Assembly: GCA_023384495.1 (NCBI GenBank)
Contig: JAHDWG010000014.1
Location: 1 to 36,118, forward strand
Source of the DNA: Caldilineaceae bacterium
Lineage (GTDB): Bacteria > Chloroflexota > Anaerolineae > Caldilineales > Caldilineaceae
Length of the DNA: 36,118 bases
Direction of reading: 5' to 3'
Shown here: piece after piece, positions 23,470-34,177 of the stretch
Position numbering within the stretch: position 1 is the stretch's first letter
Layout: every line of letters starts with the position of its first letter
Position numbers and translations under genes: made by a program
Notes under the pieces: model-generated
What the model was told of the DNA's origin: nothing
Database searches by the model: none
The model's input: the letters and a program-made list of their open reading frames with translations, nothing else

Positions 23470-24687
23470 CTATGCCAGGCTTTCCAACGCCTGCTTTAGG
23501 TCAGCAATCAGATCGTCGGCCTCCTCGATGCCCAGGCACAGCCGCACCAGCTCGTCGCGGATGCCCATTGCCGCCCGATCCTCTGGTGGGACATTGGCGT
23601 ACCCCATCAACGCCAACGGGCTGACCATGCTCTCGACGCCGCCCAGGCTGGGGCCAATCGTGGGGATGGTCAGCGCATCCATGAAGCAGTGGGCCCGCGC
23701 CGCGTCGCCCTCAATCTCAAAGCTGACAACGCCACCAAACCCCCGCATCGTCGCCGTGGCCAGCGCATGGTCGCGGTGACATGCCAAACCTGGATACCAG
23801 ACTTGGCGTATCTGAGGCTGCTCGGCCAAATAGCGAGCCACCGCCAGCCCGTTGGCATTCTGTCGCGCCACCCGGAGCGCCAGCGTTTTGATGCCGCGCA
23901 GGATCAGGTACGCAGCATGGGGATCGACCACATACCCCAACATGCTGTGCGCCTGGCGCAGGCGGGTTGTCAGGTCATACGAGCCCACAATGGCGCCCGC
24001 CATCACATCATTGTGCCCGGCCAGATATTTGGTGACACTGTGGATCACCAGATCGACGCCATAATCGAGGGCGCGCAGGTTGACGGGTGTGGCAAACGTC
24101 GTATCGATCACCGTCTTGATCTGGCGCGGCTTCGCTATGTCGACCAGGCGAGCGAGATCAATGCAATGGTTGAACGGATTTGTGGGCGACTCGGAAAAGA
24201 TGAGGCGGGTATTTGGTCGGATAGCCGCCTCCAGCGCCGCATAGTCGCCGTGGGGCGTCACCGTGACTTCGATCCCATATCGGGGAAGAAAGTTCTGGCA
24301 ATAGAGCAACGTGTTGTAATAGCACTCATCGGTGAGGATCAGATGGTCGCCGTGGCTGAGCATGAGCAACAAGGTCGCTGTCACCGCGGCCATTCCGCTG
24401 CTAACGAGGATGGCGTCCTCAGCGCCCTCCAGCGCAGCGATCTTGGCCTCTACTGCGCGCACCGTTGGGTTGCCATAGCGACCATACTCTTCGCGCTCCG
24501 GCTCTTCCCAGAACATGTGCTCTTCGGTATAGTTGACGAGCGCGGCCGTCGATTCAAACGTATAAACAGCCGTCTGCACAATCGGCACGGTAAGGCTGTT
24601 GTGGGCGCGAAAGCGCCGCTCTCCGGCGTGGACTGTGGCCGTTCCCAGTGTCGGTGAAGGAGGCCGTGAATTGGCGTCAACTGTCAT
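23470..24687 (-). CDS. Cystathionine gamma-synthase/lyase-type PLP enzyme
   Basis: Cys/Met-metabolism PLP enzymes form or split thioethers in the exchange between cysteine, homocysteine and methionine. The 405-residue protein has the family marks: YGRYGNPT (68-75), SSGMAA (96-101), ESPTNP (166-171), D195 that binds the PLP nitrogen, and the Schiff-base K220 in [13 protein letters not shown]. The C-terminal GVESMVSPL segment is typical. Synthase, lyase and O-acetylhomoserine sulfhydrylase cannot be told apart safely. I chose the ATG at 24687 because family homology starts here; in-frame starts at 24768 and 24810 would add unrelated residues, though the ribosome site at 24687 is weak. A highly structured region lies upstream. 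Confidence 0.88.
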
Positions 24688-24820
24688 ATTGTCATTTTCG
24701 TCCAAAGAATATTGAGGCTCTCCAGCGTCGGACGGGAATACGCGCATTCTGGACTGCAAAATCCGCATGGCGCATTCCCCAGAGAAATCCAGAGAACCAA
24801 AATTGATCACCTGTAAAAGT

Positions 24821-25070: not shown

Positions 25071-27077
25071 TTACTCTTTGCCCTGGGCTTTGGCCGCCGC
25101 ACGCGCCTTGGCGGCGGCGATGCGCTCCTGGGCAGTCGTGCTCAACTTCGGTGTTGCAGGAGCGGCGGGCGGCGCCTCTGCAGCAGGTTCGGCGGGCGCT
25201 GGCGTAGCAGGGGCGGCCGCACCGCCGGCTGCGGCAAGTTTGGCCGCTGCGCGGGCCTTGGCGGCAGCAATGCGGTCGGCGGCGGCGCCGCTCAAGTTAC
25301 CAGGTGCAGCCGGCTCTTTGGCTACTGCCGGTGCGGCAGGCGCAGGTTTGGCGGCGGCGTGGGTGCTCTTCTCCGGCTGGAGAAGGCCGGCCAGATCCTG
25401 CAACAGATGCCAGTTGTTGAGACGATCCTGCTGGGCAGCGAGCAACATTTCGCCCGGGTTGCCATCCTTGTCAAAGTGCTTTTCAAAGCGCCCTTCTCCG
25501 CGGGCAAAGTCGATAAAGGTGAAGGGCTGCTTTGTCTTGGGGTCCACATACCAATCGTCATTGATGGCGGGGTTGCCCTTGAGGTCGAGCCGTTCGCGGA
25601 TCGTGCGCCCCTTGCGAGGATCGTAGACCAGCAGCGGGAAGGCGCGGCTGTCTACCGCCGCGCGCGCCCGTTGGGCGGCTTCATGGTCGCCCACACCATG
25701 TTCGGGCTGGCAGGTGGTAAAGACGCTGATGATGGCCGGGCCGGGATACTCGTTGGCGTCCAGCACGGCCCGGTAGAAGTGGTTCATGTGGGCGGCGGTG
25801 GTCTGCGCCACAAAGACATTGGGGTGCATCATGGCGATCTGGGCAATCTCTTTGCGCGCTTCGGATTTACCCAGCTCTTCCTTGCCAAAGGGGCTCATCT
25901 TGGTGCCCTGGCCCTGGAAGCTGCCGGTGGACGCCTGCCCGCCGGTGTTGGAGTAGACCTGCGTGTCGAGCAGCAACACCTTGATGTCCATCCCGCTGGC
26001 AAACATGCGGCTGAGCGCGCCAAAACCGATGTCAAGCATGGCGCCGTCGCCGCCGATCACCCAGAGCCGCTTCTTCTCCCACCCCATCTGGTCCCAGCGG
26101 GCGCGCACGCCCATGGCGTCGGTGGGGCCATTCTCAAAGAGCGAATTGGTCCACGGGACGCCCCATGGATTGTAAGGGTAGGTGCTGCCATAGACAGTCG
26201 TACAGCCGGTGGAGTTGACGATGCCGATGTTCTCCTGACCCACCTGGAAGGCGGTGGCGGCCAGCCACATGCGCAGCGCGGTCGCTTCGCCACAGCCGGC
26301 GCACGAACCGGCCCCGCCCACATAGAGCAGGCTGCGGTCGGCCAACATCATGTCCACCAACACCCGTTCGTTGATAAAGCGTTCTGGCGTGGGCGGCAGC
26401 TTACGGAAGAAATCAAAGGCCTCACGATATTGGGGGACGGTCTTCTCTTCCTTCTGGATCATCTTGAGCGCGTTGTAGCCCAGGTCGGCGCAGACCTGGA
26501 CACACTCGGCGCACCCCTTGCACTTGGTCGGGTCGATAAAGATGCCAAACTTGCCGCCCGAACCGGCTTCCTTCTTCTCCGGCACACTGTAAAACTTGTT
26601 GGTGACCGCCCACTGGCGACCCAACCAATCGCGCTCCTCTTCGGGCGTCTGCGCCAGGGCCAGTTCGAGCACCGACCCCTCCGTCACCTTGCCCAAGATG
26701 GCGGTGTCGGGGCATTCGGTGACACAGGTCATGCAGCCCACACAGTTGTCCTGGTAGAATTCAGGGATTTCAGGGGCAATGTAGGAAAAATCGCGATAGG
26801 CGCCCGTGCCCGCCGGGATGAGCGACCGGGCCACGCTGAGATCAGCGATCAGGTCATCGTCCTGGCCGGCTTCGTAGGCGCTGACAATGCGGGCGTTGAA
26901 ATCAGCGATATAGGCGTCGAGGTTGAGCTCAAAGAGCGCGCCGGGGATGTCACAGGCATCGGCGCCATTGGTTGCGCCGTGGGTGTGGCCGTTTGCCTGG
27001 CCATTGGTATGCCCGTTGGTTGCGGCCTGTTGTTCAACCGGTTCGTCGTCGATCAGGAAAATCGGGCTTGCAGCCAT
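25071..27077 (-). CDS. Pyruvate:ferredoxin oxidoreductase, ferredoxin plus TPP-binding subunit (beta-delta type)
   Basis: PFOR splits pyruvate with CoA into acetyl-CoA and CO2 and passes electrons to ferredoxin. This 668-residue subunit covers the C-terminal part of NifJ-type enzymes. Residues 18-40 are an Asn-Gly/His-rich linker. Two [4Fe-4S] sites follow: C112/C115/C118/C122 and C186/C189/C192/C196. The cluster cysteines of the TPP domain begin with C259 and C262 (GSCAGCGE), and GGDGAMLDIG near 355 binds TPP-Mg; NTGGQASTG follows. Residues about 570-668 are an Ala/Pro-rich tail that contains RIAAAKARAAAK twice. I chose the ATG at 27077, which has AAAGGAG upstream; an ATG at 27098 overlaps the previous stop. 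It is coupled with the CBS-bearing subunit. Confidence 0.92.
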   Translation of the reverse strand: MAASPIFLIDDEPVEQQAATNGHTNGQANGHTHGATNGADACDIPGALFELNLDAYIADFNARIVSAYEAGQDDDLIADLSVARSLIPAGTGAYRDFSYIAPEIPEFYQDNCVGCMTCVTECPDTAILGKVTEGSVLELALAQTPEEERDWLGRQWAVTNKFYSVPEKKEAGSGGKFGIFIDPTKCKGCAECVQVCADLGYNALKMIQKEEKTVPQYREAFDFFRKLPPTPERFINERVLVDMMLADRSLLYVGGAGSCAGCGEATALRMWLAATAFQVGQENIGIVNSTGCTTVYGSTYPYNPWGVPWTNSLFENGPTDAMGVRARWDQMGWEKKRLWVIGGDGAMLDIGFGALSRMFASGMDIKVLLLDTQVYSNTGGQASTGSFQGQGTKMSPFGKEELGKSEARKEIAQIAMMHPNVFVAQTTAAHMNHFYRAVLDANEYPGPAIISVFTTCQPEHGVGDHEAAQRARAAVDSRAFPLLVYDPRKGRTIRERLDLKGNPAINDDWYVDPKTKQPFTFIDFARGEGRFEKHFDKDGNPGEMLLAAQQDRLNNWHLLQDLAGLLQPEKSTHAAAKPAPAAPAVAKEPAAPGNLSGAAADRIAAAKARAAAKLAAAGGAAAPATPAPAEPAAEAPPAAPATPKLSTTAQERIAAAKARAAAKAQGKE

Positions 27078-27097
27078 CAAAGGTTCTCCTTTCCGCA

Positions 27098-29506
27098 TTA
27101 TGCGGCCACCGCGGTCAATTCGGTTTCAGACAGGACGCCAACCGGTTTTTGATGCCCATTCTCTTGTTGCACCACCACCAGGCTGTGGAGCCCGTGCTCG
27201 ACCAGCTTCTTGCGAGCGTCCTCCAGATGATCGGTCGGCATAGCCGTGAGCACATCCCGGCGCATGATCTGGGCCGAGGAGAGGTCGGCGAGCGACTTGT
27301 GTTCGCCATTGCCGCCGTTGCCTGCACGGGCTTGCTCGATGTCGCTGCTGCTGACCAGCCCTTGCAGGTTGCCCTCGTTGTCGATGACGACCACCGCGCC
27401 GACACCGTGCGTCTCCATCGCCTGGGCGATCTTGGCGACTGGGGTAGTCAGGCGGCAGGCAAAGACCGGGCTGCGCATGACATCTTGCACCAGTTTGCCG
27501 TTGGTGTGGCCTGCTTTTCCATTGGTCTGGACGCCGTTGGTTTCGACTGCGACCTGCCCGTCGGCGAGGATGACCTCGCGGGGGATCTCCAACACTTCGG
27601 TAAAGCCGCGGCGGACACAGGTCAGATTGTCCTGGACGATCCGCTCCCCACGCTTGCCAAAGTATTTGCGCAGGCTCTTCTCGACCCCGGCCATTAGTTC
27701 CTGTTCACCGATGTGACGCCGCTCGAGGAAGGGGGTGGCCTTCAAAAAGACCCCCAAGAGGACGATGCCCTGCATACGCACTTGCAGGTCGGGCACCGAG
27801 GCCACCGTACGGGCAATCGCGGCTGCGTCGAGGTAGAGCACCCGGATGTCGCGCTCGCGGATGATGCGCCGTGCATAGGCCGGGATATTGTTCCAAACCT
27901 GCTGCGGGTCGGTGTAGCTCGACTGGACAAAGACGGCGCCCCCCGGCTGCAACCCGGCCAGCGGGTTGCCCGAATTGAAGGCGTTGACATCGTTGAGCGG
28001 CACAAACTCGACAAAGTTCATCTCGCAGTGAGTGCGCACCGGTTGGTCCGCCACCGTCAGATAATAGGTTGTGGGAAGTCCCTTCTTCTCCGAGCCATAT
28101 TTGGGATAGGCCTGGACATAGAGATCGAAGAGGTCGCCGACAATGGTGGCGATGACCTTATTGGTGGTGACCGAGCCATACCCACCCACCGAATGGCCGC
28201 GCATGGAGAAGGCGCCATTGGGCCGCACATCGGGGTCAAAATTGTTGGTCAGCGCCAGTTCGTGTTTGATGCCGAGGACAAAATAGCGGCGCCCTTCGTG
28301 AATCATATTCTCGACCGTGGCGATAAAGTCGCCGGGGCGCACGTCGCGGCTGCCCAGGCCGGCGGCGCCGCTGTAGATCACCGGCAGGCGCTCCACCTTG
28401 GGGTAGCCATCGGTTCCCACCAACGCATCGGCAAAGGCGGCCTTGATCTCGGCGGTCAACGGGTTACTCTGGCCCATGGGGTTGTCCATGCGTTCGAGCA
28501 CGGCAAAGGCTTTGGTGTTGCGCAGGCACGCCACCAATTCGGGGCCGGGGAAGGGGCGGAAGCTGGTGACGTGGACGACGCCGACCTTCCAGCCGCGCTG
28601 TTCGCGCAGGTAATCGCACGTCACTTCGGCGGTTTCGGCCATGCCGCCCATGCACACAATCGCGTACTCGGCGTCCTCCATGCGGTATGGCTCGATCAGG
28701 TCGTAGCGCCGCCCGGTGAGTTCGTAGAATTCGTCCATGGCCGCCTTGAGCGCGGGCTTGACGCGGTCGTAGAAGGCGCGCTGGGCGATCTTTCCCTTCA
28801 TGTAGCTGTCTTGATTTTGGACCACACCCGACATCATGGGCTTGTCGGGGTTCATCAGGTTGCGCAGCTTCTCTTCCGGTTTGCCCATAAACTGCTTCAT
28901 CAATTCGGGTTCGAGCAGCCGTACATTTTCCACCGTGTGGGTCGTCAGAAAGCCGTCTTGGGCGCTCAGGAAGGGAGTCTGGCTGTCTTCGGCGGCGCGG
29001 CGGGTGATGAGCGCCATGTCGCCGGCGCCCTGGGCATTCTTGGCGATGGTGATGCCCCAACCCGTATCGGCCACGCCCATAATATCATCATGGCCGGCGT
29101 GTACGTTCAACCCCTGGCTGGTGAGCGCACGCGCGCCGATATGAAAGACGATAGGCAACCGTTTGCCGGAGATGACGTAGAGCACCTCTTTCATCAAGAT
29201 CAGACCCTGGCCCGATGTAAAGTTGGTGACACGGCCACCGGCCACGGCAAACCCTTCGGCGGCTGAGGCGGACGAGTGTTCGCTTTCTGGCTCCATGAAG
29301 ATCAGCGGGTCTCCCCACAGATTCTTTTGGCCGTTGGCCACGGCAAGCGCATAGTGCTGCCCCATCACCGTCGACGACGTGATCGGGTACGCACAGGCGC
29401 CCTGTGTGATATTTACCTCCACCCAGGCGACGGTTCCGCTGCCATCATCGGTCGTAGGGATACCCGGGTAGCGGACTGCGCCAGGGGACTTGCCATTGTT
29501 ACTCAT
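27098..29506 (-). CDS. Pyruvate:ferredoxin oxidoreductase alpha-gamma subunit fused to a C-terminal CBS pair
   Basis: This 802-residue subunit holds the N-terminal domains of PFOR. Residues about 15-250 form the pyrimidine-binding domain I (TQGACAYPITSSTVMGQ; EPESEHSSASAAEGFAVAGGR), about 270-390 domain II, and about 410-630 the gamma domain (RGHSVGGYGSVTTNK). After a TNG-rich linker (about 650-670), residues 671-802 form two CBS motifs (VQDVMRSPVFACRL...GLVSSSDI and QIMRRDVLTAMPT...GVLSETEL). CBS pairs usually bind AMP, ATP or S-adenosyl compounds and regulate the attached enzyme. I do not know this fusion as a standard PFOR layout. The ATG at 29506 has GGAGGTG seven bases upstream. It is first in the operon and divergent from the dehydrogenase genes. 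Confidence 0.92.
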   Translation of the reverse strand: MSNNGKSPGAVRYPGIPTTDDGSGTVAWVEVNITQGACAYPITSSTVMGQHYALAVANGQKNLWGDPLIFMEPESEHSSASAAEGFAVAGGRVTNFTSGQGLILMKEVLYVISGKRLPIVFHIGARALTSQGLNVHAGHDDIMGVADTGWGITIAKNAQGAGDMALITRRAAEDSQTPFLSAQDGFLTTHTVENVRLLEPELMKQFMGKPEEKLRNLMNPDKPMMSGVVQNQDSYMKGKIAQRAFYDRVKPALKAAMDEFYELTGRRYDLIEPYRMEDAEYAIVCMGGMAETAEVTCDYLREQRGWKVGVVHVTSFRPFPGPELVACLRNTKAFAVLERMDNPMGQSNPLTAEIKAAFADALVGTDGYPKVERLPVIYSGAAGLGSRDVRPGDFIATVENMIHEGRRYFVLGIKHELALTNNFDPDVRPNGAFSMRGHSVGGYGSVTTNKVIATIVGDLFDLYVQAYPKYGSEKKGLPTTYYLTVADQPVRTHCEMNFVEFVPLNDVNAFNSGNPLAGLQPGGAVFVQSSYTDPQQVWNNIPAYARRIIRERDIRVLYLDAAAIARTVASVPDLQVRMQGIVLLGVFLKATPFLERRHIGEQELMAGVEKSLRKYFGKRGERIVQDNLTCVRRGFTEVLEIPREVILADGQVAVETNGVQTNGKAGHTNGKLVQDVMRSPVFACRLTTPVAKIAQAMETHGVGAVVVIDNEGNLQGLVSSSDIEQARAGNGGNGEHKSLADLSSAQIMRRDVLTAMPTDHLEDARKKLVEHGLHSLVVVQQENGHQKPVGVLSETELTAVAA

Positions 29507-29637
29507 GTTGAACACCTCCAAATTACGGATTACACAGGCGTTTGCAGATCGAGAAAATCGCGAGATGGTAGCCAGTGCGGAGACTCCTCACGCAAGTGAG
29601 GGCGCAACGCGCCACTAGCAAACTAAAACAGAGTCCT

Positions 29638-29684
29638 GTATGAAAACGACGGGTTTGCCGCCGCAGAAGCCGTCATTTTCATAC
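29638..29684. repeat. 15-bp hairpin in the PFOR upstream region
   Basis: GTATGAAAACGACGG (29638-29652) pairs with 29670-29684 except for one position, with a 17-base loop. The right flank, ACAACCACGAGTATAG, resembles the flank of the 30052-30136 repeat and a segment near 34630, so it may be a diverged member of that family. Confidence 0.5.
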
Positions 29685-29928
29685 AACCACGAGTATAGTT
29701 CATCAATCCAACGATGACCGCTGAAGCCAATTGAACCGTTGAAGCCAGGTGAAGATGTGAATAAACAGGAGCTTGATCTTGCGATCAGTTCAGGTAATTG
29801 CGTCACTTGTATTTGGCGCAGCCGCGCCCAGATCAACCATCCAGCACGGTTACACAACTGAACGCTGATAGTATATCGGAAAAGTCGTAAAAAGGGAAGA
29901 ATAACTACAAAGCGCAATTGCCATAATT

Positions 29929-29956
29929 TGAGCCTACTTCCCCCTGCGGGTATAAT
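29929..29956 (+). promoter_or_regulatory. Possible distal promoter toward the dehydrogenase operon
   Basis: TTGAGC (29929-29934), 16 bases and a perfect TATAAT (29951-29956) face the E1alpha gene. The leader would be about 430 bases and include the T-arm-like hairpin and the palindromic repeat. It could instead drive a short RNA. Confidence 0.4.
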
Positions 29957-29975
29957 GAAATGGCATTTATGATCC

Positions 29976-30008
29976 TCGCCGCGGGTTCGAGCCCCGCCTG
30001 GGCTCCGT
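29976..30008 (+). pseudogene. tRNA-like 3' fragment (T-arm and acceptor-like sequence)
   Basis: GCGGG-TTCGAGC-CCCGC (29981-29997) is a perfect tRNA T-arm with the invariant TTCGA loop, followed by CTGGGCT (29998-30004), which could be the 3' side of an acceptor stem. An AGCCTAC at 29932 could pair partly, but the D and anticodon arms between are not tRNA-like, and no CCA follows. It may be a decayed tRNA, an integration scar or chance. Confidence 0.3.
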
Positions 30009-30051
30009 AGCGCGCCTGGAAGGTGAGAAGCATAGGAGAATGGATGCGCGT

Positions 30052-30136
30052 CTATACTGAGCTCTGTTTGACAACCGGAGTCCTCTGTAGCGGTAACAGT
30101 CGCGCAAATTCCGGTTTTCAAAACAACCGCAGTATA
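30052..30136 (-). repeat. Palindromic intergenic repeat, copy 2
   Basis: The two 27-base ends (30053-30079 and 30110-30136) are inverse copies: both read TATACTG at the outside and end inward with TTTGA(C/A)AACCGGA, with a variable 6-base stretch between. The element is the reverse-complement relative of 22670-22755. It can form a long hairpin with a loop of about 30 bases. Confidence 0.6.
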
Positions 30137-30395
30137 GCGATTGGGACCGCGCGCCATGCCAGATGGGTGTTGGCCGATGATCACCGGCTTGATTTATGGG
30201 CGACCTCACTGCTCGATTCCTCGCCCCGCTGGCAATTCCACCAGTTGACGCCAAAGCCATTCGACACAGCCCGCTGAATGAAGGTTCGGGCCGGCTGTAT
30301 GCTATGTCAGTGTTGGCCAGGTTGCAGCTGCGCGTCGCTCATCAATGCGGCTGGATCTGCGCTGTCTCAATTACGCAAATAGGAGAATTCAATCG

Positions 30396-31460
30396 ATGGT
30401 AGCACCAGCCAAGACACGGGCAAAGAACAAGACAAAAAGCAAGGGCATCTCCATGAACGCGGCGATCCCATCCGTAGCGGCTGCGGATGGGCGGGCGACG
30501 AGCGTGCTTCCCACCGAGACACTGCTAGAAATGTACCGCCGCATGTTCCTCATCCGCCGCGTCGAAGAATCGTTGCTCAAATTGACCGAAGCCGACCTCA
30601 TCGGGGGCGCCATGCACACGGCCATCGGCCACGAGGGCAACGCTATTGGCGCGGCCTGGGCGCTCCGCCCCGACGACTACCTGACTTGCACCTATCGTGG
30701 CCACCATCACTCGCTTGCACGCGGGATGGACCCGAAACGAGCCATCGCCGAAGTGCTGGGTCGCAGCGACGGATTTGCCAAGGGCAAGGGCGGCTCCATG
30801 CACTTCATCGATCCCGCGCTGGGCCTGATGGGCGCCAACGGCATTGTGGGCGCTCAGGTTCCCCATGCGGCGGGCATGGCGATGGCCAGTATGATGCGCG
30901 GTGACGACCGCATTGCCATCACCTTTTTTGGCGAGGGGGCCATCTTCCAAGGCGTCATGCATGAAACCTTTAACATGGCCGCCAAGTGGAAGCTGCCGGT
31001 CATCTTCTATTGCGAGAACAATCGCTATTCTGAGATGACACCCATCTCACGCACATCTGCGATTGACAATCTCTATGAGTTTGCCCGCGGTTATGGCATG
31101 GAAAGCGTCCAGATCGATGGCAATGATGTGGAGGTAGTCCACCATGCGGTGAGTGAGGCCGTGGCCCACGCCCGAGCCGGCGCCGGCCCTACCTTTGTCG
31201 AAGGCATCACCTACCGGCTCGCCGGCCACATGGCCAAGGATCTGGAGACCTACCGCAGCAAGGATGAAATCGAAGCGCAACGGGCGCATGAACCGTTGGT
31301 GGTGCTGCACGACAAGCTCATTGAGCGAGGGGCGGCGGAAGAGACGCTCGAACAGATCCGCGGCGAGGTGGAGCGAGAGGTCAACGAGGCCGTGGACTTT
31401 GCCCAGAACAGCCCCTGGCCGCCACGAGCAGAAGCATATACCGACGTCTTCGCCGTGTAG
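30396..31460 (+). CDS. pdhA: 2-oxoacid (pyruvate) dehydrogenase E1 component, alpha subunit
   Basis: E1alpha with E1beta decarboxylates a 2-oxo acid on TPP and acetylates the lipoyl arm of E2. The protein has 354 residues from the ATG at 30396, which has AGGAG ten bases upstream; the first 35 residues are a basic, probably flexible tail. Conserved segments are [36 protein letters not shown] and the TPP/Mg motif GEGAIFQG (179-186) with ENN (207-209). The second residue of that motif is Glu where Asp is usual (GDG). AcoA-type acetoin dehydrogenases have the same architecture, so pyruvate is likely but not certain. Tandem 14-base repeats begin at its stop codon. Confidence 0.9.
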
Positions 31461-31513
31461 ATGCAGCAGTGTAAATGCAACAGTGTAGATGCAACAGTGT
31501 AGATGCCGTGTAG
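31455..31513 (+). repeat. 14-bp tandem repeat across the E1alpha stop codon
   Basis: Units GTGTAGATGCAGCA (31455-31468), GTGTAAATGCAACA (31469-31482), GTGTAGATGCAACA (31483-31496), then GTGTAGATGCC and GTGTAG. The first unit contains the TAG stop of the E1alpha gene, and each copy repeats a stop triplet. It fills most of the gap before the E1beta gene. Confidence 0.85.
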
Positions 31514-31533
31514 TATAGCACAGAAAGTCACCT

Positions 31534-32535
31534 ATGCGTACAACAACCTATATTCAAGCAGTCAACGAGGCCATGAAGGATGAGATGCGGCGCGACCCTA
31601 GCGTCTTCCTCATCGGCGAAGACTTGGCCTACTATGGCGGGCTGTTCCGTGTGACCCGCAACTTGATGAACGAGTTCGGCGCGTTCAATGACGACCCCAA
31701 GGGCCGTCTCGTCGATACCCCCATCAGCGAGCAAGGTTTTATGGGGATGGCGCTGGGCGCGGCCATGGTGGGCATGCGCCCCATTATCGAACTGATGTAT
31801 ATGGACTTCTTTCTCGTCTGCGCCGACCAGATTCTCAATCAGGCGGCCAAGATGCACTATATGACCGGCGGCTTGGTTCATGCCCCTATGGTCATCCGCG
31901 GTCAACACGGCGGCGGCAAAGGCTATGGCTCGCAACACAGCCAGTGCGTCGAGAGCGCGCTCGCCCACTTCGCCGGCATCAAGGTGGTGGCCCCGGCCAC
32001 GCCCTATGATGCAAAGGGGCTGCTGATCTCCGCCATCCGCGACCCGAATCCGGTCGTCTTTCTCGAACATAAGATGCTCTATTTCACCCGGGGTGAAATG
32101 CCCGCCGCCAATGAGGAATTTACCGTGCCCCTGGGCCAGGCCGATGTCAAACGTCAAGGCGCAGACCTGACCATCGCCACGTTTAGCTATTGCCTGCTCG
32201 AAGCACTGGCCGCCGCCGAAGAACTCAAGGCCGAACAAGGCATCGACATCGAGGTGGTGGACCTGCGCAGCATTGTCCCCCTCGATATGGAAACAGTCTT
32301 TGAATCGGTGGCGAAGACAGGTCGCCTGCTGGCCGTGCATGAGTCCCAGTCCAACTGTGGCATCGGAGGGGAAATCGTGGCCCGCATCTACGAAGAAGCG
32401 CCTCATCTGCTCAAGGCGCCCGCCCGCCGCCTCGGCATGGCGCCCGTCTCCATCCCCGTGTCCGAGGCGCTAGAGCAAGAAGTGTTGCCGTGGAAGAAGA
32501 ATATCAAGGCCGCCGTCCTGCAAATGCTAGGGTGA
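31534..32535 (+). CDS. pdhB: 2-oxoacid (pyruvate) dehydrogenase E1 component, beta subunit
   Basis: This subunit completes the TPP active site with E1alpha. The 333-residue protein opens with [31 protein letters not shown] and contains [24 protein letters not shown], with the glutamate that activates TPP, as well as [16 protein letters not shown] and the C-terminal transketolase domain [14 protein letters not shown]. The length and order are standard. It lies 73 bases after the E1alpha gene, across a tandem repeat, and is clearly in the same operon. Confidence 0.95.
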
Positions 32536-32553
32536 ATGAGTGGGGGGATGATC

Positions 32554-32620
32554 AGTGACGAGTGATGAGTAGATTATCCCTCACTTATCACTGCCCACAT
32601 ATCACTCCTCACTTGTCGCT
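32554..32620. repeat. Imperfect palindrome made of GTGA-type repeats between E1beta and E2 genes
   Basis: The arm 32554-32570 (AGTGACGAGTGATGAGT) pairs with 32604-32620 over 17 positions with two G-U pairs and one mismatch. A second, inner pairing is possible between 32561-32570 and 32583-32592. Short (A/G)GTGA units recur throughout, as in simple intergenic palindromes known from many genomes. It fills the 112-base gap between the two genes. Confidence 0.6.
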
Positions 32621-32647
32621 CCTCATGAAGAAGAAGCGAGGGAAATC

Positions 32648-34177
32648 ATGGCGACAGAAGTCAAATTGCCCGAACTGGGCGAAGGCGTGGAAGACGCCGC
32701 GGTCAGCCGCTGGCTGGTCAAGGTGGGCGATCAGGTCAAGGCCGGCGATGTCATCCTGGAGGTCGCAACCGACAAGGTGGACACCGAAGTCACTGCGCCC
32801 GCCGACGGCGCGGTGCTCCAGATCAACGCCGACGAAGGAGAAATCGTGGCGCTCGATGCGGTGCTGGCCGTGATTGGCGCCGAAGGCGAAAGCACAGCCG
32901 ACGATGCCCCCAAGGCCGCGCCCAAGCCGCCGGCATCCGCCCCCGACGCGGACGCAGCCGACGCCGAGCCGGCATCCACCGCGGTGGAGGTCTCGGTTAA
33001 CGGCCATGAGGTGAAGGCCACCCCGGTCGCCAAGCGCATTGCGGCGGAAAAAGGGGTGTCGCTCGACGGTGTGACGGGCTCGGGCCCGGGCGGCGCCATC
33101 ACCAAAGAAGATGTGTTGGCTGCCGCCGATGGCAAGGGCCCAGCGCCAGCCCAAACCGAGGCTCTCCCCGGTGACCTGGCTGATGTGCCCACGTTGAGCG
33201 TCCAACGGTTGGCCGCCGAACACAACCTTGATCTGAGCGAGATCGCGGGCGGGCGGCCCCTTAGCGCGCTCACCCGCTATGATGTGCTCAGCGCCGTCGC
33301 CAGCCGCGAGGCGGGCAAGCCGGTCACGGTGGAACCCCGGTTTCTCGCCCCCCAGGGCGCGCCCACGCCCGCCGCTCCGCCGGAACAGCCTACCAGCGAG
33401 CCGCCTGCCGCCAAGCCCACACCGCCGCCAAGCGCGCCAACCGAGCCCAGAGGGGGTGAAACACTGGTGGCGCACTCGCGCATGCGCGCGGCGGTGGCGC
33501 GCAACACCACGCAAAGCGCCTTCACCGCCCCCCATGTCACCGCCTGGTGGGATGTGGACATGACGGCCGTGTTGGGTCACCGCAAGGCGCACAAGGCCGA
33601 ATTTGCCGCCGGCGGCGTCAACCTGACCGTAACCGCCTATCTCATCGAGTCAATTGTGGCAGGGTTGAAGGCTGTCCCCGCCGCCAATGCCAGCTATACC
33701 GATGAGGGGGTGGTGCTCAAGCACTATTACAATGTGGGCATGGCTGTGGCGCTGCCGCCCGACCAGCATGGGCTGGGTGGGCTGATCGTCCCGGTGATCA
33801 AAAACGCCGGCGACCTCAACCTCATGGGCATTGCGCGCGCTGTCAACGACCTGGCCGAAAAGGCGCGCGCCAACAAGCTGCGCGGCGAGGATCTGCAAGA
33901 CGGCACCTTTACGCTCACCAATTATGGCACGTCGGGCAGCGTCTTTCAGACCCCGATTATTGTGCAGCCCCAAGTGGGCATTTTGGGCACGGGCGCGATT
34001 GAAAAACGCCCCGTAGTGGTCAGCAATGGTAGCCCGCTCGAAGCCAACCTGGGCGACTATCTCACCTTCAAACCGATGATGACCATGGCGCTCAGCTATG
34101 ACCATCGCGTGCTCGATGGGGCGACCGCCGACGCCTTTTGCGCGGAAGTGAAAAAGGCGCTGGAAGGTTACCGATGA
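32648..34177 (+). CDS. pdhC: Dihydrolipoamide acyltransferase (E2) of a 2-oxoacid dehydrogenase, two peripheral-subunit-binding domains
   Basis: E2 forms the core of the complex and transfers the acyl group from lipoyl to CoA. Residues 1-78 are a lipoyl domain with K43 in TDKVDTE. After an Ala/Pro linker, a peripheral-subunit-binding domain lies at about 123-158 (ATPVAKRIAAEKG...GAITKEDVL) and a second at about 181-217 (SVQRLAAEHNLDLSEI...LTRYDVL). A Pro-rich linker leads to the catalytic domain at 270-509 with H486 and D490 in SYDHRVLDG. Most E2 proteins have one binding domain, so the second is unusual. GAGGGAAATC precedes the ATG. It is the last gene of the operon, followed by a terminator. 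No E3 (dihydrolipoamide dehydrogenase) gene is adjacent. Confidence 0.95.
   Translation: MATEVKLPELGEGVEDAAVSRWLVKVGDQVKAGDVILEVATDKVDTEVTAPADGAVLQINADEGEIVALDAVLAVIGAEGESTADDAPKAAPKPPASAPDADAADAEPASTAVEVSVNGHEVKATPVAKRIAAEKGVSLDGVTGSGPGGAITKEDVLAAADGKGPAPAQTEALPGDLADVPTLSVQRLAAEHNLDLSEIAGGRPLSALTRYDVLSAVASREAGKPVTVEPRFLAPQGAPTPAAPPEQPTSEPPAAKPTPPPSAPTEPRGGETLVAHSRMRAAVARNTTQSAFTAPHVTAWWDVDMTAVLGHRKAHKAEFAAGGVNLTVTAYLIESIVAGLKAVPAANASYTDEGVVLKHYYNVGMAVALPPDQHGLGGLIVPVIKNAGDLNLMGIARAVNDLAEKARANKLRGEDLQDGTFTLTNYGTSGSVFQTPIIVQPQVGILGTGAIEKRPVVVSNGSPLEANLGDYLTFKPMMTMALSYDHRVLDGATADAFCAEVKKALEGYR

Follow-up and report, generated by a model that had tools for sequence, protein, structure and literature searches.

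Background

Pyruvate:ferredoxin oxidoreductase (PFOR) is a central and ancient enzyme that makes acetyl-CoA and low-potential electrons, and no regulatory subunit dedicated to it is known to us. We describe here a two-gene PFOR encoded in a 36,118-nucleotide stretch of contig JAHDWG010000014.1 from a Caldilineaceae bacterium (Chloroflexota), the whole of which is henceforth called the window. The one-chain PFOR/NifJ enzymes of Moorella thermoacetica (6cin-6ciq) and Desulfovibrio africanus (1b0p/2c3y) have domains I, II and III in common with the alpha-gamma subunit of the window, and resemble its delta-beta partner in having a pair of 4Fe-4S motifs as well as a TPP domain whose four cysteines serve the proximal cluster. 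The window enzyme differs from them in being split between two genes, in bearing a CBS pair after domain III, and in its divergence (about 29% identity). Untailed two-gene PFORs of Caldilineaceae, Planctomycetota, Verrucomicrobiota and Nitrospinota share its gene order and are about 60-75% identical in the core, but their alpha-gamma subunit ends at about residue 650.

CBS pairs are diverse: they can serve for dimerisation, and their ligand may be SAM or a metal ion, or they may have none. Bateman modules sitting in or on a metabolic enzyme and acting allosterically, as we propose here, are found in IMPDH, AMPK gamma and CBS-pyrophosphatase, none of which, to our knowledge, is an oxoacid:ferredoxin oxidoreductase. 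IMPDH and AMPK have been named as CBS-regulated in work on AcuB, a CBS-ACT energy sensor of Bacillus and Geobacillus whose loading with AMP controls an acetyl-CoA pathway (PMC13121692). AcuB and the tail in the window agree in their CBS-pair fold and in the placing of the ribose-binding Asp residues, the second of which is Glu in the window; however, AcuB is an independent adaptor protein containing an ACT domain, and its target is a deacetylase, whereas the CBS pair of the window is joined to the acetyl-CoA-forming enzyme itself. The original prediction was aware of no described PFOR of this layout, and in the searchable open-access literature we likewise found no description of a PFOR or ferredoxin oxidoreductase with a CBS or Bateman domain.

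Results and discussion

Domain architecture of the two-gene PFOR

The features of the locus are as follows:

27098..29506, minus: PFOR alpha-gamma subunit with C-terminal CBS pair, 802 aa (ATG at 29506, GGAGG upstream, stop ending at 27098)
28742..29398, minus: POR_N, residues 37-255, TPP/pyruvate-binding domain I (Pfam, 1.5e-53)
28424..28672, minus: PFOR_II, residues 279-361 (Pfam, 6.6e-17)
27602..28186, minus: POR, gamma, domain III, residues 441-635 (Pfam, 1.6e-30)
27494..27571, minus: linker, residues 646-671, Thr/Asn/Gly-rich (alignment and AlphaFold2)
27329..27490, minus: CBS1, residues 673-726 (above the curated Pfam cut-off, genome scan)
27110..27271, minus: CBS2, residues 746-799 (above the curated Pfam cut-off, genome scan)
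25071..27098, minus: PFOR delta-beta partner, 675 aa (4Fe-4S motifs and TPP domain)
30345..34177, plus: lipoyl-type pyruvate dehydrogenase (PDH) genes, divergent from PFOR, context outside the enzyme (Pfam)
30345-31460, plus: PDH E1 alpha
31534-32535, plus: PDH E1 beta
32648-34177, plus: PDH E2

The original prediction of a PFOR subunit that runs past its gamma domain into two CBS motifs is borne out by the Pfam domains, the open frame and the fold match. In the Pfam search of the 802-residue protein, POR_N, PFOR_II and POR each score above their curated cut-offs, and CBS matches twice, with a whole-protein E-value of 3e-23 and a score of 82 bits where the cut-off is 24. The POR_N domain, nearly invariant among the compared sequences, displays the YPIT, ExESEH and GARAL motifs. 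That prediction had given no strand and left the partner subunit undiscussed; a forward-strand reading of 27098-29506 is rejected, as it contains two internal stops.

The stop of the alpha-gamma gene overlaps the ATG of the delta-beta gene (TAATG), with a downstream ATG (MAASP) as an alternative start for the latter. The delta-beta protein contains two 4Fe-4S ferredoxin motifs (C119-129 and C193-203) and a TPP domain with C266, C269, C299 and C463 (TPP_enzyme_C, 2e-10, Pfam), giving 12 cysteines at the spacings expected for three 4Fe-4S clusters, including the proximal cluster. From these motifs the two-gene enzyme is a PFOR with pyruvate as its predicted substrate. The one-chain PFOR equivalog TIGR02176 (cut-off 911 bits) is not reached by the two subunits (366 and 201 bits), each of which covers part of the 1167-position model; such low scores are expected of a split, divergent form, and the model therefore does not fix the substrate. 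Delta-beta ends (25071-25331, minus) in a tail rich in Ala and Pro that contains two [DE]RIAAAKARAAAK repeats.

As the window derives from a fragmented metagenome-assembled genome (MAG; 764 contigs, 8.23% contamination), a frameshift or assembly error joining two genes deserves consideration. However, separate assemblies contribute 13 other loci with the identical fusion (L006-L015, L019, L083 and the partial L137, several recurring as the named MAG records L035-L041), in which the whole tail aligns in frame, and this recurrence leaves practically no room for a joining artefact, the outcome that would have undone the original prediction. The frame is moreover open throughout, and GC content by codon position is similar in the core (0.62/0.42/0.79) and the tail (0.71/0.39/0.78).

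Distribution and history of the fused tail

A survey of this architecture, as suggested with the original prediction, shows that besides the window the tail is present in 12 Chloroflexota genomes and in one MAG contig labelled Deltaproteobacteria (L083), which at 6.75 kb is too short to confirm that label. A family that we designate f15 has it in 9/9 genomes possessing the gene, and it is also seen in G034 (locus L019). In the window's order, a strong core match is found in 31/46 genomes, three of which (G000, G336, G374) are tailed. The untailed core is widespread in other Caldilineaceae, Planctomycetota, Verrucomicrobiota, Nitrospinota and elsewhere, while in Acidobacteriota the core lies within one chain of about 1200 residues. 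As most close homologues do without the tail, the CBS pair is dispensable for catalysis. The flanks of the untailed loci, examined over 1.5 to 8 kb, yielded no CBS domain save for one weak, distant match.

The window core is 77-82% identical to the fusions of the Caldilineales group, 71% to L019 and 61% to L083, and its tail is 45-52% identical to the other Caldilineales-group tails; its linker exceeds that of most relatives by 12 residues. The core tree places the window at the base of a fused clade with support of 100. Its genus is represented by one genome, and its tail branch is about 1.0 against 0.17-0.19 for the core, as against 0.1-0.3 and about 0.07-0.16, respectively, in its siblings. 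Three changes between fused and unfused states are needed on the core tree, which raised the possibility of independent origins; yet a single origin survives an AU test (p-AU 0.40), and in the CBS tree the tail of L083 joins an f15 tail on a long branch (98/91). Hence, we claim neither independent origins nor a single one.

CBS pairs as separate genes in PFOR operons

In another Chloroflexota class, where the gene is present in 45/151 genomes sampled, alpha-gamma stops near residue 645, and between it and delta-beta, on the same strand, stands a separate gene for a CBS pair, about 131-158 codons long, in 27/30 loci, with an ATGA overlap at the alpha-gamma/CBS junction in 14/16 measured. In the CBS tree, the fused tails cluster with a stand-alone CBS protein of L019 (93/81), and the separate operonic CBS proteins form the next group (84/74); the remaining CBS proteins from the genome of the window fall elsewhere. 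The fused tail is the equivalent of the separate CBS gene in the same operon of relatives, and the encoding of the same pair in either form supports a regulatory link between it and PFOR. The stand-alone gene of L019 (2543-3193) precedes delta-beta and accompanies a fused tail, so that this one PFOR operon has four CBS motifs and one genome combines both forms.

Fold and ligand-site residues

The AlphaFold2 model of the window protein has a mean pLDDT of 84.5. With Foldseek its core matches Moorella PFOR (6ciq_C, 2.8 A over 646 columns) and its tail AMP-bound AcuB (9s52_B, 1.9 A over 129 columns); the best alignments of the tail are with 9zni_6 and AcuB, and adenine-nucleotide sensors are among the closest solved CBS pairs. 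Two CBS motifs above the Pfam cut-off, along with the predicted CBS-pair fold, identify the tail as a Bateman module. Residues 650-669 fall below a pLDDT of 50, marking the linker as a flexible tether.

In AcuB, ribose is bound by Asp52/Asp122 (B. subtilis) or Asp53/Asp123 (G. stearothermophilus), and Arg33/His34 contact the phosphates (PMC13121692). The ribose-binding Asp of CBS1 is kept in all 31 PFOR-linked pairs (D722 in the window) and that of CBS2 in 30/31, the sole exception being the window with E796; both are present in the other 13 fused tails. The CBS1 Arg-His of AcuB has no counterpart in CBS1 of the PFOR-linked pairs, which instead have a His-Arg pair in CBS2 (30/31, the window having S775 for the Arg); this pair was absent from the 5 other CBS proteins compared. 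Thus, the second site of the window protein may be altered, and having lost two otherwise invariant CBS2 residues this copy is a poor basis for inferring binding. These substitutions, with the fast-evolving tail, call for caution regarding full sensing in the window's organism.

Proposed function and its alternatives

We posit, with a probability of roughly 0.6, that the Bateman module has an adenosine ligand and that the two-gene PFOR is tuned through it. In this alpha-gamma plus delta-beta enzyme, the gamma domain carries the fused CBS pair at its C-terminus, at the point where a one-chain PFOR would pass from domain III towards its ferredoxin domain. The pair would most likely bind AMP, ADP or ATP in the first place, and Ap4A or another adenosyl compound in the next; the ligand would then alter PFOR activity or ferredoxin coupling via the flexible tether and probably dimer contacts. 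Judging by the tether and by its location between gamma and delta, the module may act close to the ferredoxin end of PFOR, or else across dimers. Given its altered CBS2, the window protein might bind one ligand per chain or another ligand, or its regulation might be weakened. That a nucleotide is bound, which one it is and in which direction it acts are inferences. As to direct control by energy state, which the original prediction envisaged, the regulatory link between CBS pair and PFOR and the adenine-nucleotide sensing of the nearest solved pairs speak for it, but the loss of the conserved residues at E796 and S775 weakens the case for the window protein.

The Ap4A-sensing role also reported for AcuB (PMC13039410) raises the possibility that the pair senses not adenylate charge but some other adenosyl ligand, such as SAM, Ap4A, NAD(H) or CoA, or recruits a partner protein. 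The general diversity of CBS pairs and the presence of the basic pair in CBS2 instead of CBS1 would accord with this, and nothing specific speaks against it; nevertheless, we consider it unlikely, if by no means negligible, as adenine nucleotides are the ligands of the nearest solved tails for which a ligand is known. CBS pairs usually dimerise, and a module that senses nothing and simply keeps the two subunits, or PFOR dimers, in contact would explain why the window retains the predicted fold after losing CBS2 ligand residues. However, it would hardly explain why the ribose-binding Asp is kept in almost all relatives, fused or separate, and untailed homologues with the same core in many phyla are evidently functional without it, making such a purely structural role improbable. 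A similarly low probability attaches to the window's lineage retaining in its tail the decaying remnant of a sensor that relatives keep in working order: the long tail branch, unlike that of the siblings, and the E796 and S775 substitutions would fit decay, but the intact frame, both CBS motifs above the Pfam cut-off, normal codon-position composition, the retained CBS1 Asp and the preserved overlap with the next gene would not, and the change from D to E is conservative.

A ligand-binding regulatory module thus remains our preferred reading, and the occurrence of the domain both fused and as a separate gene within the operons of relatives suggests that the conversion of pyruvate to acetyl-CoA may be directly tuned by nucleotide state. 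A conserved CBS partner, fused or in-operon, would give PFOR a dedicated regulatory subunit with an obvious ligand class. It would also parallel the recent finding on AcuB, according to which a CBS protein links acetyl-CoA synthesis to the energy state by a different route (PMC13121692).

Genomic context of the locus

The genes divergent from PFOR encode PDH E1 alpha, E1 beta and E2, and thus the lipoyl-type dehydrogenase recognised in the original prediction. Its further suggestion, that CBS control decides whether pyruvate takes the PFOR or the PDH route, is not upheld, as PDH adjacency is uncorrelated with the tail. PDH adjoins PFOR in many Caldilineaceae loci, mainly untailed (L048-L056, L059, L098, L103), and among the tailed loci with long flanks it lies beside PFOR only in L040, being absent in L035, L036 and L041. 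The co-localisation is hence real but, occurring mostly at untailed loci, uninformative on the CBS tail. The divergent genes are separated by an 838-base intergenic region (29507-30344), a search of which found no tRNA.

Downstream of the PFOR genes (23470-24810, minus) lies a methionine gamma-lyase/cystathionine gamma-synthase-like PLP enzyme, which could be a source of 2-oxobutyrate; relatives of it occur near PFOR, often divergently, in the untailed loci L027, L029, L060, L062, L065 and L130.

CBS genes beside a distant one-chain PFOR

A distant one-chain PFOR of 1186 aa is present in the genome of the window as well (L115, own genome C143; 6664-10224, minus). Within 3705-11256 of L115, two CBS-pair genes lie directly upstream of it; downstream are a third CBS gene and genes for a DHODH-like protein and a universal stress protein. 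A CBS-pair gene directly upstream of a one-chain PFOR is found in 8/16 loci of the window's order. With about 20 CBS genes in the 7.6 Mb of the window's genome, chance adjacency is unlikely, by a rough estimate that ignores shared ancestry among non-independent loci. Together, the fused tail, the separate operonic gene and the gene upstream of one-chain PFOR indicate, at the level of gene organization, that CBS pairs are repeatedly coupled to PFOR. We more tentatively extend this to a general, hitherto undescribed control layer on acetyl-CoA formation, in which PFOR would be directly and allosterically controlled by adenylate (energy-charge) sensing through a dedicated CBS subunit, encoded by its own operonic gene in one bacterial class, fused in another, and attached separately to the distant one-chain PFOR, a proposal to which we give somewhat less than an even chance. 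The gammaproteobacterial relatives of the one-chain form (L112, L113, L114) are about 1660 aa long with a long extra region, to which L112 adds a C-terminal 4Fe-4S ferredoxin-like domain.
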